A stretch of 64,000 nucleotides of DNA from Bdellovibrio sp. (GCA_016187935.1 JACPIU010000007.1:1-64000), one strand, 5' to 3'. Shown: positions 2,354 to 16,015, numbered from the stretch's first letter. A program made the numbers and translations. The notes: generated by a model from the sequence alone, not told the origin.

Positions 2354-5300
2354 TTAAAAAGGTGAAATCGCCCTTTTAATATCATCAATTCGGCGATTTA
2401 TTTCGGTTAAAATATCGGCCTTAACTTTGGCCATCACCACGTTCATGGGTGTGCCAGCAAGAAGTGGTCGCACAACCTCGCGCTTAATCGCATCCATGAT
2501 ATCGCGGCCGGTGGCATTGCGCTCAAAAATGGCCTGCATATTATTGGGCGAGACGACTCTTCTCCTGGCCTGATCTCCCAGACCAATCTCATCTGCCTTG
2601 GCGATAATTTTTTCCGCGATGTATCCCTCAATCATTGTAGTCATCAGGTCTGAGCGCACCAGTTCCTCGATAAACTGCTTATCCGTCATGGTGCTCGTGC
2701 CACTCAGACGAGAACGCATATGCACTTTAAAGTCGGTAATTCGTCTCTGGGTAGTGACTTGATCAAAGCGGGCCGAATCACCAAGGAACGTTGCCATCTG
2801 GGTAAAGGTATCGCTCAAGCTACCAATGGGATCGCTGGAGGCACTCCCAGAGGTAATGATTTTTCCATCAAAAATGGGGAGCAAAATGGTAAAGCCATCT
2901 TCTACCACAGCACGCTGACCACCATTTAAATTGGAGGGTATCTTGGTATTATAATAACGATGGACTTCTAACTTTAGATTAGGTTTTAGCGCGGTATTGG
3001 TGCATTTTTCCACTTCATCTTTGACCCAAGTGAGCCCGCGACTCAACTGGCCTTCAACAATATTTAAACAGGCCTGGAAGGCCGGCATGGCCACAGGGGA
3101 ACCTGCGCGAATTCTGGACATATAATCCAGAGTCGCTTGGGCCAATCTCTCGGCAAAATGGAGAACCGTTTTCGACATGCATTCGTTCAGTTTTGTTTCG
3201 AGTTGCGTGTCAGTCCAACCGGCATACGCGGCCACGCATCGATTAAAGAATTGGCGTGTATCGGTAAGAACCGGGCCGGTGCGAGAAGGTTCTGAACTTA
3301 AGAATCCCAGATTGCTTTCAAAACTTTCCATCAGGGCCATTTCGGCAGTTTCTACTTTGATTTTTTTAGAACAAATATCCATGGCGGCTTGAACATTAAC
3401 AGTCTCGCGTCTGGTCAATTTATCTTCAATGTTTTGAAAGCAGGCACGGGCATTGGCCTGGGCGCGCGGAACCACCCGCTCCCGAATACTTCCTGAAAGT
3501 GAGCGATAAAGCTCGCGTTCAACCAGAATAAGAGCGACTTCCCGTCCGGCACGAACTTTAAAGATCTCGCCAAGTCTTGCCACCGCTCTTGGGCCAGCGG
3601 CATTGGCCCGAGCAATTTCAGTCCACAAGCTATTGACCAACAGACGAGATTTTACCTGGCGTTGGGCGGCCCGATTACCGGAAATTTCAGCCGCAGTGCC
3701 TGTTGATACAGGAAAATATAATTCCAACGCACTGTTGAGCGATACTTGGAAAATAGAATGAGTGGCACTATTGGTGGCCTTGACAGCACATTGATCGAAT
3801 TTCTTATCAAAATCACGGGCATCATCTTTAATTTTTCCCAGACATTTACGATACTCTTGAACAACTCCTCTGGTAATGCTGGCACGCGAACTAGCACTGG
3901 AGACATGCTCACGCAAACGCTCGGGCAAAGCTGTTTCCATAATAAGCGGAGCGGCGGTCTTTTTGACTTGCGCTTGGAGGCGTTTTTGAAGGGCGTCGTC
4001 GCCTGCCGCGATGGCGGCCCTCATTTGAGCTTCCCAGGTAGGAGTGACTACTTGAGCAATGATTTGATCACTCATGGCGGTCTGTCTTTCCTCATTCCCC
4101 GGCAAGTTATCTGCAACAGACCAGCGCAAAGACTGTTTCACAATTTCAATCGTCGCATCGGCGGTAAAGGCATCGACTTGGGCCATAATATTGGCCTCAG
4201 TATCAAGTCCCTGAATGCGTGCAGTGAAATCGGCCTTCAAACGCGCCACCAATTCGCGGCGCCGGGCCTCATCCGGCACCACTGATAGCAACTTCTGATT
4301 CATGGCCATTTCGATAACTCGCGGTAGAATTTCTTTATAGAGCGAAACAGTGCAACGGGCCTGGGCCCCCTCAAGCGCAGCGCTTAAGGCATCAACGGTA
4401 TCAAATGATTTCAACTCTTCAAAAAGACAATGCTTCATTTTCTGTCCCATCTCGGTAATCATGGTGGGATCACGTAACGCTGGAATGTCTTTTAAATCCG
4501 GTTTCTCTCTTAAGGTTTTTAAATATTTCTGTCTGACCATTTCGGGGGCCAATTCCATAATGGCACGAGTGATACAATTGGCATTGGAAAAATCATCGGT
4601 GGGAATGGTGGAGCCATCGCGCGCCAGGGAGGTGAGAAGAACCGCCCGACGATCATCAAAGCATTTACGCAAATTATAGCTATAGGGACGGGGCTCCATG
4701 TTCCCCAACCCAACTTCACGTAAGGCCCAGTTGTAAGCAGGAGTATCTCGACCCATTTCTTTGGCAAGATTATCCTGTAAAATCAAAATAAATGACTCTC
4801 GCGTGGCGACGTTTTGGGCCATGGTGGTACATTTCGCCGGATCGGGAACTCCCCTCTGGCGCTCGAGACAAGGCTTAAGCCCTTCAGTCATGGTTAACTG
4901 AACAACTTGCTGGCGAAGGGCGGGATTATCGCGTGTGGCCTCCACTAAAGCATTATTAGTGGCCACTTGTCTTTCGATAACCACTTCAGCCGTTTTTACT
5001 TTAGTTGTTGCAATACACTCGCTCAGCTTCTGCTGAAATTGTTCCACTTCCAGACTCTGAAGATGCTGATGATTATATTGCCGGAAATTCTCCGCCTGAA
5101 CGAAGTATCGGGCAGAGCTTAGGCACTGGCGCATGGCCCCCAGCAATTCCTCCCGTTTTGCTGTTCTTGTGCTGGAATCGGCCATCAGTGGTCTGAGCAA
5201 ATCATCGATACTCAAGGTGGTGGCCTCATCTGTACCATCCATGACCCCTTGGAAAAGACAACTCATAATCACGTTATTAGCATTAAAAGGTAAATCATCA

Positions 5301-6832
5301 TCAACAAATCCTCGCCGCACGGCCCTTCTCTCATCGGGTGGGCGGGGTGTCCGTGCGCGCCTTCTGTTGGCCGCAAGATTCTTAATATGTTCATCATAAG
5401 GTCGAAAATAATTACTTTGCGAGCATTGATCAAAACGTTTGAGCGAAGTCGCCAATACACCTCTTTTTTGTTGGGTGGTCAAGGTCTGGTCTCTAAGCCC
5501 GGCCTCAATATGTAAAGTGAGCAGTTCTCTTCCCACACGATAAGGGGCCGAGCGGGCAAATTTGGCGACGCAGACATCAATTTCTCCTGACGAACTGGCG
5601 GCCCTTAAGCATTGCTCTAAATCACGAGTGGCGCGGATGGCCACTCCTCTTGCCATATCGGGCAGCGAACCTTCCGGTAATTTTTCTAAGGCAACTTTTT
5701 TGACCAATTCAAAAGCAAATTCCATGGCAGCACGTTTTTTAATCCCCTCAGTATCGGAAAATGGAGCAAACCATGGGAGAGAGGCATTAACGGCAATTCG
5801 ATGGGCCAAGGCACGCAACTCTTGATCAGTAAAAGTCTCGCGCATGGTCTCATTTTTCTTGGCCTCTTCATAAATACTGTTCTCTACCATTTCCCGTTTT
5901 TTTGCTCCTGAAACAAAAATATTCCAGATCAATGTTCCAAAAATCCCATCTAAAACCCCAGTCACTAAATCAACCGGTGCCTGAGCAATGGCCTGACCGA
6001 CATCGAATTCGGGGTCGCGATCATTGGAAAGTGAGATATGTCCATCGAGTTCCTGGAAAAACATCAGTGACCACACATAACTGCCATTTTGCCGACGACG
6101 CCGAACCTCGAAATCATAGGTTTTGTACAAACCTCGGGCACAGTCTGTAATCACGGAGGCGGTAAAATCCCCACCCGACTCGGAGTCGAAACTGTTCTGC
6201 CCGGAGATACGGACCAAAGTGGTCGTTTGATTCTTGATGAGGAGCTGACCGTTTTCCTTTTCCACGCGTAAAGGCAATCGGCTTCCGTTCTCTGAGACGA
6301 TGGCAAAGCGTTTAAATTTATGGTCGTGGGTAAGAATCGCTCCCAAATAGAATGCTGGGGAACCGCATGCCGGTGAGAATTTCACCAATCGTTTAATATT
6401 GAAATCTTCGCTAGGGGCCTCAAGACGGGAAACAATCTCCCGCGTTTGATCCGCCAATTGAAAAAGGTTCCCAACAGGAATGGCAAAAATAAGGGCCTGG
6501 CAATCCCTGGCATGCAGTCGATAGTATGTCTCTAATGGCCAATTCAGTTCAATCCTTTGCATCTCGGTGGTGGCGTGGGCCAATTCCTCGGAAGTATGCA
6601 AGGGATATTCTCGCTTCCAAACCAGCGTCCTCGGATTGAGATTTGTATTTGTGGCATACTTTTCAAGAATGAGAATACCGTGAGAAGAATCGAGTTTGGC
6701 CTGATAAAGAGTGCGGTCTCCGGTGAAATTGTTCCAGACAGATCCAACTTCAGAACGTGAGGCAATGACCTGGATTTCGGCCCAGGACTTGGCAGAAAAT
6801 ATCATCACCACAATTATGAAAAATAACCGCAC
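2354..6832 (-). CDS. Giant exported protein with tandem cysteine-pair helical repeats, function unknown
   Basis: 1492 residues. The GTG start at 6832 is preceded by a strong AGGGGGG. A signal peptide ends near SWA-E. Residues ~20–280 look beta-rich and hold four scattered cysteines. A hydrophobic stretch around 286–310 may be membrane-associated. From about residue 408 to 1277 the sequence is almost all helical and contains at least nine units of the form xxC[LFV]-x(12–35)-C followed by a long amphipathic helix. Cys spacings are x12, x35, x12, x28, x24, x17, x22, x18 and x21. Such pairs in an exported protein suggest disulfide-pinned helical hairpins. I do not recognise the family. Divergent from the lipoprotein at 6948. 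Confidence 0.85.
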   Translation of the reverse strand: MRLFFIIVVMIFSAKSWAEIQVIASRSEVGSVWNNFTGDRTLYQAKLDSSHGILILEKYATNTNLNPRTLVWKREYPLHTSEELAHATTEMQRIELNWPLETYYRLHARDCQALIFAIPVGNLFQLADQTREIVSRLEAPSEDFNIKRLVKFSPACGSPAFYLGAILTHDHKFKRFAIVSENGSRLPLRVEKENGQLLIKNQTTTLVRISGQNSFDSESGGDFTASVITDCARGLYKTYDFEVRRRRQNGSYVWSLMFFQELDGHISLSNDRDPEFDVGQAIAQAPVDLVTGVLDGIFGTLIWNIFVSGAKKREMVENSIYEEAKKNETMRETFTDQELRALAHRIAVNASLPWFAPFSDTEGIKKRAAMEFAFELVKKVALEKLPEGSLPDMARGVAIRATRDLEQCLRAASSSGEIDVCVAKFARSAPYRVGRELLTLHIEAGLRDQTLTTQQKRGVLATSLKRFDQCSQSNYFRPYDEHIKNLAANRRRARTPRPPDERRAVRRGFVDDDLPFNANNVIMSCLFQGVMDGTDEATTLSIDDLLRPLMADSSTRTAKREELLGAMRQCLSSARYFVQAENFRQYNHQHLQSLEVEQFQQKLSECIATTKVKTAEVVIERQVATNNALVEATRDNPALRQQVVQLTMTEGLKPCLERQRGVPDPAKCTTMAQNVATRESFILILQDNLAKEMGRDTPAYNWALREVGLGNMEPRPYSYNLRKCFDDRRAVLLTSLARDGSTIPTDDFSNANCITRAIMELAPEMVRQKYLKTLREKPDLKDIPALRDPTMITEMGQKMKHCLFEELKSFDTVDALSAALEGAQARCTVSLYKEILPRVIEMAMNQKLLSVVPDEARRRELVARLKADFTARIQGLDTEANIMAQVDAFTADATIEIVKQSLRWSVADNLPGNEERQTAMSDQIIAQVVTPTWEAQMRAAIAAGDDALQKRLQAQVKKTAAPLIMETALPERLREHVSSASSRASITRGVVQEYRKCLGKIKDDARDFDKKFDQCAVKATNSATHSIFQVSLNSALELYFPVSTGTAAEISGNRAAQRQVKSRLLVNSLWTEIARANAAGPRAVARLGEIFKVRAGREVALILVERELYRSLSGSIRERVVPRAQANARACFQNIEDKLTRRETVNVQAAMDICSKKIKVETAEMALMESFESNLGFLSSEPSRTGPVLTDTRQFFNRCVAAYAGWTDTQLETKLNECMSKTVLHFAERLAQATLDYMSRIRAGSPVAMPAFQACLNIVEGQLSRGLTWVKDEVEKCTNTALKPNLKLEVHRYYNTKIPSNLNGGQRAVVEDGFTILLPIFDGKIITSGSASSDPIGSLSDTFTQMATFLGDSARFDQVTTQRRITDFKVHMRSRLSGTSTMTDKQFIEELVRSDLMTTMIEGYIAEKIIAKADEIGLGDQARRRVVSPNNMQAIFERNATGRDIMDAIKREVVRPLLAGTPMNVVMAKVKADILTEINRRIDDIKRAISPF

Positions 6833-6947: not shown

Positions 6948-7388
6948 GTGAAAACAATTTCGATATTTTTACTAACTTTTCTCATCTCAAGCTGCAGCTT
7001 GTTTAAGCGCGAAGTCGACTGGGTTCGATATAAGAGCGATGTCGGCTTTCATTTTACCAAAATACGAGAGGCCACCTTGGGAAGGGTTTTGATCCGTCAT
7101 TCTTTTTTCAAGGAAACCCGTACCTATTTACGTTATATAAACGAGGAAACTAGTCAATTTAAACAACAATGGCCAATTGTCCCCAATGAATGGCAGGAAC
7201 AATTTATGCTCAAAGTTCAACAAGCGTCCTTAGATCAAGATGTTTCAAAATCAGGAGAATCTTTGAGTGGTGAAAAATTTGTCGCCGATATTAATCGCGC
7301 CCTTTTGAAATACATCGAACAGCTACGCTCGCTTGCCAATCCCAAAGCACGCGACGAACGACCGCGCAGTCTCTTTTTCTTTTTTTGA
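6948..7388 (+). CDS. Putative lipoprotein, unknown function
   Basis: 146 residues starting at GTG 6948 behind GTGAGG. The N-terminus is a lipoprotein signal with lipobox ISSC (Cys16), so the mature protein should be anchored to a membrane facing the periplasm. The rest is charged and helical, with no motif I recognise. It is transcribed divergently from the 1492-residue exported protein, and the shared intergenic region hints at joint expression. Immediately after its stop lies a 123-bp palindromic element that probably ends transcription. Confidence 0.75.
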   Translation: MKTISIFLLTFLISSCSLFKREVDWVRYKSDVGFHFTKIREATLGRVLIRHSFFKETRTYLRYINEETSQFKQQWPIVPNEWQEQFMLKVQQASLDQDVSKSGESLSGEKFVADINRALLKYIEQLRSLANPKARDERPRSLFFFF

Positions 7389-10787: not shown

Positions 10788-11903
10788 TTAAAGCTCAAGA
10801 AAGTCTTTTAGCTTTAGGTTTGACTCGGACAGATCAGTTAAATTATCGATTTCAATTTCATCGAGAGCAACGACGCGCTGTTGAGCTTCTTTTAAATTAT
10901 ATTTTTCTTCCAAAAGTAACACCGCACGAATAGAGGCCAGGGCGACCTCTAATTGCTTCTCATCCGGCTCACGGGTGGTGAGCTTCTGTAAAAGCTGGCC
11001 GGGGTAAGAAAGCACTTGTCCCCAGCGAGTTTTGCCGTATTTTCCCATTAATTTAATGAATTCATAAGCGATACCGGCAATGGGAAAAGTGAGTAATATT
11101 TTACAAACGATCGCCACCCCGTGGCCCGCGATCACCGGCAATCCTTTGCCAATTGGGAAAATTGCAAACACGATACTGAACAAAATGATTGAAATGAAAA
11201 GGAGAAAAAAGACAAAAGTGGTGCCACAACGAGGATGAAAAGTGGGATATTTTTTGGCGTAGTCCACCAACATGCTCTCACCGGCCTCAAATGTTGAAAT
11301 CGATTTATGCTCGGCCCCATGATATTGGAAAACACGTTTGACATCGGGAAAAAGACCAATCAGCATGACGTACAAAAGAAAAATGCAGGCCTTGATGACT
11401 CCATCAACCGCATGGAATTCAAAACTTTGCAATCCCCACACTTGCCCGAAGAATTTCTCGATCAAGGCGGTAATAGCGTGGGGTAAAAAAACAAATAATC
11501 CAATCCCAAAAATAAAGGACAGAGCGATCGAGATGTAAGTGCTCCAGGATACTTTCTCTTGGGACTTTCTCTTTTTCTCGTAATCCTCCATATTCATGCC
11601 TTTTTTTAAGGCATCCTTCTTTTGCTCCTCGGCCAAAGCAATATTGGCCGAATAATTGAGAGAAACTATTCCATTGGCCATGGTTTCAATCAACACAAGC
11701 ACGCCGCGGACAAAAGATCGCTTAAAAAGCGGGATTCTGTTTGCCAACCCATACCATTGATCACGTCGTAGGCGAATTTTACCTTCGGGGGTACGCACCG
11801 CTACCACGAAAGCATGAGGAGAGCGCATCATCACGCCCTCAATCACGGCTTGTCCGCCAATGGCAGCGTATTCCTTGCCCTTTGCCTGGCGATCAGACTG
11901 CAT
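10788..11903 (-). CDS. DUF1385 family membrane protein
   Basis: 371 residues. The family signature is clear: AIGGQAVIEGVMMRSP near the N-terminus, then YHGAEHKSISTFE and HPRCGTTFVFF between hydrophobic segments. Four or so membrane spans lie between residues ~110 and 280. The clustered His, Glu and Cys in the loops could bind a metal, but the biochemical function of DUF1385 is unsettled. The gene lies 4 bases after rho and 45 before prfA, a conserved neighbourhood in several phyla, so it is probably housekeeping. The C-terminal 80 residues are cytoplasmic and charged. Confidence 0.9.
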   Translation of the reverse strand: MQSDRQAKGKEYAAIGGQAVIEGVMMRSPHAFVVAVRTPEGKIRLRRDQWYGLANRIPLFKRSFVRGVLVLIETMANGIVSLNYSANIALAEEQKKDALKKGMNMEDYEKKRKSQEKVSWSTYISIALSFIFGIGLFVFLPHAITALIEKFFGQVWGLQSFEFHAVDGVIKACIFLLYVMLIGLFPDVKRVFQYHGAEHKSISTFEAGESMLVDYAKKYPTFHPRCGTTFVFFLLFISIILFSIVFAIFPIGKGLPVIAGHGVAIVCKILLTFPIAGIAYEFIKLMGKYGKTRWGQVLSYPGQLLQKLTTREPDEKQLEVALASIRAVLLLEEKYNLKEAQQRVVALDEIEIDNLTDLSESNLKLKDFLEL

Positions 11904-15100: not shown

Positions 15101-15256
15101 GCGAAGAAGTATCAGATCCCACCTTCGTATGACTTTTTGACAGAAGTGTCGAAGAATCCAACGTTTATGACTTGTATGAACCTGAAATAAAGGTGTTGGC
15201 CAGGCCTTCTTTGGAATTACTTTTGCATCTATCGCATTAGGGTTGTGGGGTTAAAA

Positions 15257-16015
15257 ATGCAAAAAATAAATCTGATTTTGGCATTGTTATGCTTTTGTGC
15301 AAGCTCTGTTGGGTTGGCCGATGAATTTAAACAATCTGCCGTTCTCGCCAATCGCTTATTGAAGATTAGTAAATTGGCCGGTGAGGTCGAGGGTGCCAAT
15401 TGCTTAACTTTTGAGCACACCATGCTTGCCGATGCGGCACTGGCCTTCAAAGGTCCCTCTGGCAAGAAAGAGATTCTAAAAACCGACGCCAATCATGACA
15501 TTAGTGTTAGTGTGGTAAGCCCCACCAGAGTGCAACAACTTTTCGCCGCCATGGCATCACAATCACACATTCCATTCAGGTACCCCGATGACGGTTGCTA
15601 TGCCCGGGCCCATGAGATGTCTAGACTTCTAGAGAGGCATTATGGAGTGATTACCGCCAAGGCCTTTATTGAGGGGGACTTGCAAGTGCAAACCGCCAAT
15701 CACCCCAGCGGACAAGTGGGCTGGTGGTATCATGTGGCCCCGGTTGTGTTAGTTAAAGTCAATGACCGACATGTTCCCTATATCATTGACCCTTCCATTT
15801 TCAACAGGGCAGTTCCGTTAGAGGAATGGTATAATATCCAAACACGGCACACCAATGCCAGGAGAGATCGCGTGTACTTCACCAATCGCTTTGGTTACAC
15901 ACCATCTGACCGATTAAACACTTTATCTAGTTATAATGATGACGATAACTACACTGATGCAGTAAATACCATGCGTGAGTATCGTGACGAGCAAAAGAAA
16001 AGACACGGACGATAA
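15257..16015 (+). CDS. Exported protein-glutamine deamidase (protein-glutaminase)-like enzyme
   Basis: 252 residues from ATG 15257 behind GTGGGG. The signal peptide ends near VGLA. Residues ~25–100 may be a pro-region. The catalytic core matches protein-glutaminases: DGCYARAHEM with Cys114, WWYHVAPVV with His159, and IIDPSIFNRAVPLEEW with Asp178. This is the Cys-His-Asp triad of enzymes that turn protein-bound Gln into Glu. Spacings (45 and 19) are close to those of the Chryseobacterium enzyme (41 and 20, from memory). It lies just upstream of a small exported protein and a subtilase, which could process the pro-region; that link is inference. Targets are unknown. Confidence 0.75.
   Translation: MQKINLILALLCFCASSVGLADEFKQSAVLANRLLKISKLAGEVEGANCLTFEHTMLADAALAFKGPSGKKEILKTDANHDISVSVVSPTRVQQLFAAMASQSHIPFRYPDDGCYARAHEMSRLLERHYGVITAKAFIEGDLQVQTANHPSGQVGWWYHVAPVVLVKVNDRHVPYIIDPSIFNRAVPLEEWYNIQTRHTNARRDRVYFTNRFGYTPSDRLNTLSSYNDDDNYTDAVNTMREYRDEQKKRHGR

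Follow-up and report, generated by a model that had tools for sequence, protein, structure and literature searches.

A large exported Bdellovibrio sp. protein with ten cysteine-pair helical units and its putative family

The window analyzed here is a stretch of 64,000 nucleotides from Bdellovibrio sp. (GCA_016187935.1, JACPIU010000007.1:1-64000), in which a large gene encodes a protein of 1492 amino acids (Table 1). A G-rich stretch resembling a ribosome-binding site lies immediately 5' of the GTG start codon. The protein begins with a Sec-type signal peptide, MRLFFIIVVMIFSAKSWA, which was read by eye from the sequence, in agreement with the initial annotation of the protein as exported. The following N-terminal domain (residues 20-370) has no Pfam match. 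A long array of cysteine-containing units comes next, and the protein ends with a C-terminal domain that is shared with its relatives but here lacks the last part, which carries a DFxWxxLR motif. The overall dN/dS against the orthologue in genome G002 is about 0.05, an approximate value because synonymous sites are near saturation. The large gene is under strong purifying selection.

Table 1. Features of the large gene and its divergent neighbor, with positions in the window.
Feature	Residues or cysteines	Position	Strand	Remarks
Whole gene	1492 aa, GTG start	2354..6832	-	ORF; orthologue at 85%
Sec signal peptide	1-19	6776..6832	-	R, hydrophobic core and SWA; by eye
N-terminal domain	20-370	5723..6775	-	Lone conserved Cys111; genus-specific Cys156 and Cys231
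Cys111 codon	C111	6500..6502	-	One extra N-terminal cysteine typical of groups 1 and 2
Unit 1	C408/C421	5492..5710	-	12 residues between cysteines
Unit 2	C470/C525	5177..5491	-	54 between
Unit 3	C570/C606	4922..5176	-	35 between; both cysteines lost together in G022
Unit 4	C655/C668	4709..4921	-	12 between
Unit 5	C724/C753	4478..4708	-	28 between
Unit 6	C802/C827	4235..4477	-	24 between
Cysteine-less segment	867-979	3896..4234	-	Probable degenerate unit, similar to unit 1
Unit 7	C997/C1015	3647..3895	-	17 between; AlphaFold2 helices 2-24 and 29-40 of the fragment, cysteines at 18 and 36
Unit 8	C1131/C1154	3293..3499	-	22 between; AlphaFold2 helices 135-161 and 168-195, cysteines at 152 and 175
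Unit 9	C1199/C1218	3113..3292	-	18 between; AlphaFold2 helices 203-220 and 229-260, cysteines at 220 and 239
Unit 10	C1255/C1277	2873..3112	-	21 between; not resolved by AlphaFold2
C-terminal domain	1321-1492	2357..2872	-	First part of the C-terminal domain common to groups 1, 2 and 3
Divergent lipoprotein		6948..7388	+	Lipobox LISSC; neighbor, restricted to the genus

The protein contains 23 cysteines, three of them N-terminal (111, 156 and 231) and the other 20 arranged in ten pairs. The initial annotation had counted nine pairs with spacings of 12 to 35; all nine are correct, but the pair 470/525 had been omitted. Because 54 residues separate this pair, the earlier count was right for the spacing named and one short overall. 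The units are 60-105 residues long in this protein, and their consensus reads aromatic/Leu-x-x-C-Leu, a loop, Leu/Ile-x-x-x-x-C-Leu/Val-x-x-Ala, and then Val and Leu at helical spacing. The amphipathic helix previously noted after the second cysteine was borne out by a mean helical hydrophobic moment of 1.10, compared with 0.86 ± 0.08 for shuffled sequences (p ~0.001), and the family-averaged hydrophobic spectrum after this cysteine peaks at 90-100 degrees. In an hhalign comparison among the ten unit profiles, the best pair reached 93% probability, and the mean profile-profile score was 16.0 for unit against unit versus 5.8 for units against other segments of the protein. Starting from nothing but unit 7, an iterated HMM found 174 units that scored above 15 bits in the family, and 0 units in five cysteine-preserving shuffles. 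Judged by these profiles, the units are true repeats.

Residues 900-979 of the cysteine-less segment matched unit 1 with an hhalign probability of 79%, so this stretch probably represents a unit from which the cysteines have been lost, and the array would then probably include an eleventh, cysteine-less unit between the sixth and seventh pairs. A similar gap is present in groups 1 and 2 of the relatives described below. The spacing within pairs varies widely in several units (17-55 in unit 2, 12-50 in unit 4 and 19-122 in unit 10), whereas successive pairs follow at much more constant steps, with medians of 37-49 except across the cysteine-less segments before units 7 and 8. This is as expected for hairpins with variable tip loops.

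A search of 59 related genomes returned the orthologue at 85%, a paralogue in the same genome and distant relatives; a scan of genome contigs returned the 85% orthologue as its sole match. This orthologue, which is also the closest named homologue, belongs to the MAG Bdellovibrionales bacterium GWA2_49_15. The paralogue (G000:C7:47231-50464, 1094 aa, 33% identity) and the window protein represent a duplication within the genus lineage. The paralogue has the same unit plan in a shorter array, its last unit being unit 7, followed by the tail ETFVFW, and is kept in three genomes. Profile searches within the same taxonomic family found members in 57 and then 62 of 129 genomes, and the three profiles pooled gave relatives in about 65 of the 129. 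Relatives also occur in a few genomes from three other families of the phylum. We infer that the carrier family is Bacteriovoracaceae, and the carriers very likely represent the lineage of Bacteriovorax and Halobacteriovorax. In what appears to be the family of Bdellovibrio itself, no profile-level relative was found in 65 of 66 genomes, and the remaining genome has one. No relatives were found among plasmids, nor among viral contigs in two single-protein scans.

The family members are about 950-2055 aa long and often occur in two copies per genome. They form three groups: group 1 (1.1-2.06 kaa), to which the window protein belongs; group 2 (1.15-1.46 kaa), whose genes adjoin that of a conserved exported protein of about 1570 aa at most of the loci fetched; and group 3 (0.95-1.23 kaa), which is very regular, with 7-12 pairs at steps of about 62 residues. 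The units and the C-terminal domain are common to all three groups, and one genome (G004) encodes members of both group 1 and group 2. The window protein itself combines an export signal, an N-terminal domain, the helical array of cysteine pairs and the shared C-terminal domain. On sequence grounds, the 1492-residue protein founds a putative, hitherto undescribed protein family comprising groups 1-3. In four relatives (L078, L079, L080 and L025), the N-terminal 300 residues contain motifs that recall the trypsin fold without the catalytic His; a degenerate trypsin-like N-terminal domain was considered for these four and set aside, as Pfam gave no confirmation.

The cysteines were followed in an alignment of 30 group-1 homologues with a median core pairwise identity of 19%. 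Each of the 14 cysteines from 408 to 1015 is present in 29-30 of the 30. Those from 1131 to 1277, six in number, occur in 22-26, nearly all the other sequences having gaps at these positions. In all, 34 columns are at least 80% identical, and 19 of them are cysteines. By this alignment, it is confirmed that the cysteine-pair pattern is not due to chance. Cysteine losses are mostly pairwise: 570 and 606 are lost together in G022, 1131-1277 in the shorter paralogues, and 1131 and 1154 in four others. However, G022 also lacks 1015 and 1131 through an apparent deletion between units 7 and 8, which counts against the stapled-hairpin reading; a few divergent members (G024 and L081) align uncleanly in the last units. 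In group 2, 16 unit cysteines are each kept in 19-20 of 20 members. Long members of group 1 as a rule have exactly 20 cysteines in the units and, a few signal-peptide cysteines apart, one in the N-terminal domain that matches Cys111, and most group-2 members have 16 unit cysteines and one near residue 110. In the group-3 members L127, L128 and L130, an odd cysteine lies near the C-terminal end of the array, and none lies N-terminally in its place.

The suggestion that the protein belongs to no named family was upheld by searches of Pfam, NCBIfam, PHROGs, PADLOC and the PDB, none of which gave a significant match; a match was counted when it scored above the curated cut-off or, where no cut-off is given, had a significant E-value. 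No catalytic or toxin domain was recognized in the large protein in the family-library searches. No Sel1 (PF08238) or TPR signature was detected by hmmscan in the window protein, the paralogue or the relatives from groups 1-3 at E-values up to 0.5-1. HMMER searches of the PDB revealed no significant match for either the large protein or the unit profile, the best match of the latter being TIM13 (E 0.045, not significant). Small Tim proteins consist of a single hairpin with a twin CX3C motif. The likeness would lie in a helical hairpin held by disulfides, but TIM13 has no tandem array.

AlphaFold2 was run on two-sequence alignments. The model of units 7-10 is almost all helix (pLDDT 70.7, pTM 0.64), and when it was compared with the PDB by Foldseek, no match had an E-value below 0.05, the highest-ranking ones being designed helical proteins. 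Structure prediction had been suggested at the outset as a check on the pairing, and it placed three of the four pairs of units 7-10 on successive helices. Units 1-6 gave no reliable model (pLDDT 44). In units 7 and 8, the paired cysteines are about equally far from the loop. Those of unit 9 are placed asymmetrically about it, which counts against the stapled-hairpin reading, and unit 10 was modeled as one low-confidence helix.

A single ORF with VKOR and Thioredoxin_4 domains, i.e., a VKOR-DsbA fusion, is encoded in the same genome (G000:C31:9069-10115), where no DsbB was found. Disulfide formation outside the cytoplasm is therefore available. We infer that disulfides very probably form and that they pair within the units. 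It is most improbable that the cysteine pairs instead bind a metal or cofactor and form no disulfides. Paired cysteines on facing helices could each supply two ligands, but neither CxxC nor CxxCH spacing occurs, no conserved His or Asp is found among the columns with at least 80% identity, and the variable pair spacing, the export signal and the VKOR-DsbA oxidase all argue against metal binding.

The explanation that we favor, with rather better than even confidence, is an extracytoplasmic alpha/alpha solenoid of disulfide-stapled hairpins that acts as a binding scaffold in the envelope. The initial annotation had pictured a flexible rod stapled by disulfides; the staples are plausible, but an alpha/alpha solenoid with staples inside each hairpin reads better than a flexible rod. 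In the proposed mechanism, the protein would be exported by Sec and would work in the periplasm or at the cell surface as a string of some eleven helical hairpins, of which ten have two cysteines each. Each repeat would consist of helix A, a tip loop and helix B. The first cysteine would sit on helix A, some two helical turns down from the tip, and its partner at about the same level of helix B. The VKOR-DsbA system would introduce a disulfide between them that locks the hairpin, whereas the length of the tip loop could still vary. The stable rod or superhelix so formed, held by the N- and C-terminal domains, would most likely be a binding scaffold of the envelope. The solenoid superstructure and the periplasmic or surface location are presumed, and the scaffold role is suggested by analogy with other stapled solenoids that are secreted.

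Several known proteins are built on comparable principles. HcpB and HcpC are secreted alpha/alpha solenoids of Sel1-like repeats locked by disulfides (PMC3851747, PMC12904459), with repeats of 36-38 aa and, in mature HcpC, 267 residues (PMC3851747). The plan proposed for the large protein is likewise a secreted alpha/alpha solenoid. However, no member scanned has a Sel1 match, the repeat is about 62 aa or more rather than 36-38 residues, and ten pairs with a variable spacing of 12-54 are spread over 1492 aa, compared with the 267 residues of mature HcpC. Csep1 of Campylobacter concisus is a secreted alpha/alpha solenoid that lacks a Sel1 signature and in which every hairpin contains a disulfide (PMC12904459). 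It has three hairpins with C-x8-C, whereas the large protein has ten with spacings varying from 12 to 54, and it was not matched significantly in the PDB sequence or Foldseek searches. COA7 of the mitochondrial intermembrane space contains disulfide-stabilized helix-turn-helix repeats (PMC6505684), and so resembles the plan proposed for the large protein, an array of disulfide-stabilized repeats in an oxidizing compartment. COA7, however, is eukaryotic and consists of Sel1 repeats with five disulfides, whose cysteines are nine or eleven residues apart (PMC6505684). Because of the missing Sel1 signature, the longer repeats, the variable spacing and the lack of a significant structural match, the family would be analogous by anatomy to Hcp, Csep1 and COA7 but not a member of their families; it is far larger than Hcp and Csep1 and shows no detectable sequence relationship to them. 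To our knowledge, the protein would be among the longest disulfide-stapled alpha-solenoids. If this explanation is true, stapled alpha-solenoid scaffolds arise outside Sel1 and TPR repeats, and the units could serve as robust extracellular repeat scaffolds. The family is absent from the curated libraries searched and is conserved under strong selection.

Other readings concern what the array is for. The lone N-terminal cysteine (Cys111) might link chains into disulfide-linked dimers or fibers in which the stapled array is the shaft. This is unlikely, although it is compatible with the stapled-solenoid explanation and the single extra cysteine recurs in most long group-1 and most group-2 members; G022 has no N-terminal cysteine, and in group 3 the odd cysteine is found toward the C-terminal end of the array. 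A further extension, which we regard as an improbable speculation, is a new class of envelope fiber, in which 7-12 stapled hairpins would make a stiff rod and the conserved odd cysteine would connect rods either pairwise or end to end; Bacteriovoracaceae would then possess a covalently cross-linked filament, in the periplasm or on the surface, for prey contact or survival inside prey. The lineage, with the closest named homologue coming from a Bdellovibrionales MAG, suggests a predation factor secreted onto or into prey, such as an adhesin or invasion rod. We consider this quite unlikely, since the family is absent at the profile level from nearly all genomes of the presumed Bdellovibrio family and from about half of those of its own family, the group-1 genes sit mostly among housekeeping genes, and no catalytic or toxin domain was recognized.

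The initial annotation had also joined the large protein with the divergent lipoprotein in a surface machine. The lipoprotein gene does adjoin the large gene divergently in all three genomes of the genus, but promoter-like sites in the region between the two, taken earlier as a shared promoter region, are no more frequent than by chance. Beyond these three genomes, the lipoprotein was found in one other of the 129 family genomes, as a weak match full of stops, whereas the large family is widespread, and the second paralogue of the genus has no such neighbor. The lipoprotein being restricted to the genus, adjacency is all that speaks for the two-component idea, and a rod assembled with the lipoprotein is very improbable.

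In most fetched group-2 loci, a conserved exported protein of 1.5-1.6 kaa with a DPGVVEIM-like end is encoded about 1.1 kb from the group-2 gene (L083:11815-16584 and 10829-11779; L082-L101). It has no Pfam match and is present in 52 of the 129 family genomes. Deriving a function from this neighbor was considered and rejected, as the genus of the window lacks it and its distribution does not track the family strictly. In the window, a gene for an exported Peptidase_C92 protein of the YaeF/YiiX type (924-2298) adjoins the large gene. In both other genomes of the genus, this gene comes after the large one in the same orientation; here it shows an inversion at its site compared with both congeners, aligning with L021 on the same strand while the flanking DNA aligns inverted. 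Another exported protein in the window (15245-16015) contains a Gln_deamidase_2 (glutaminase) domain (E 1e-32).
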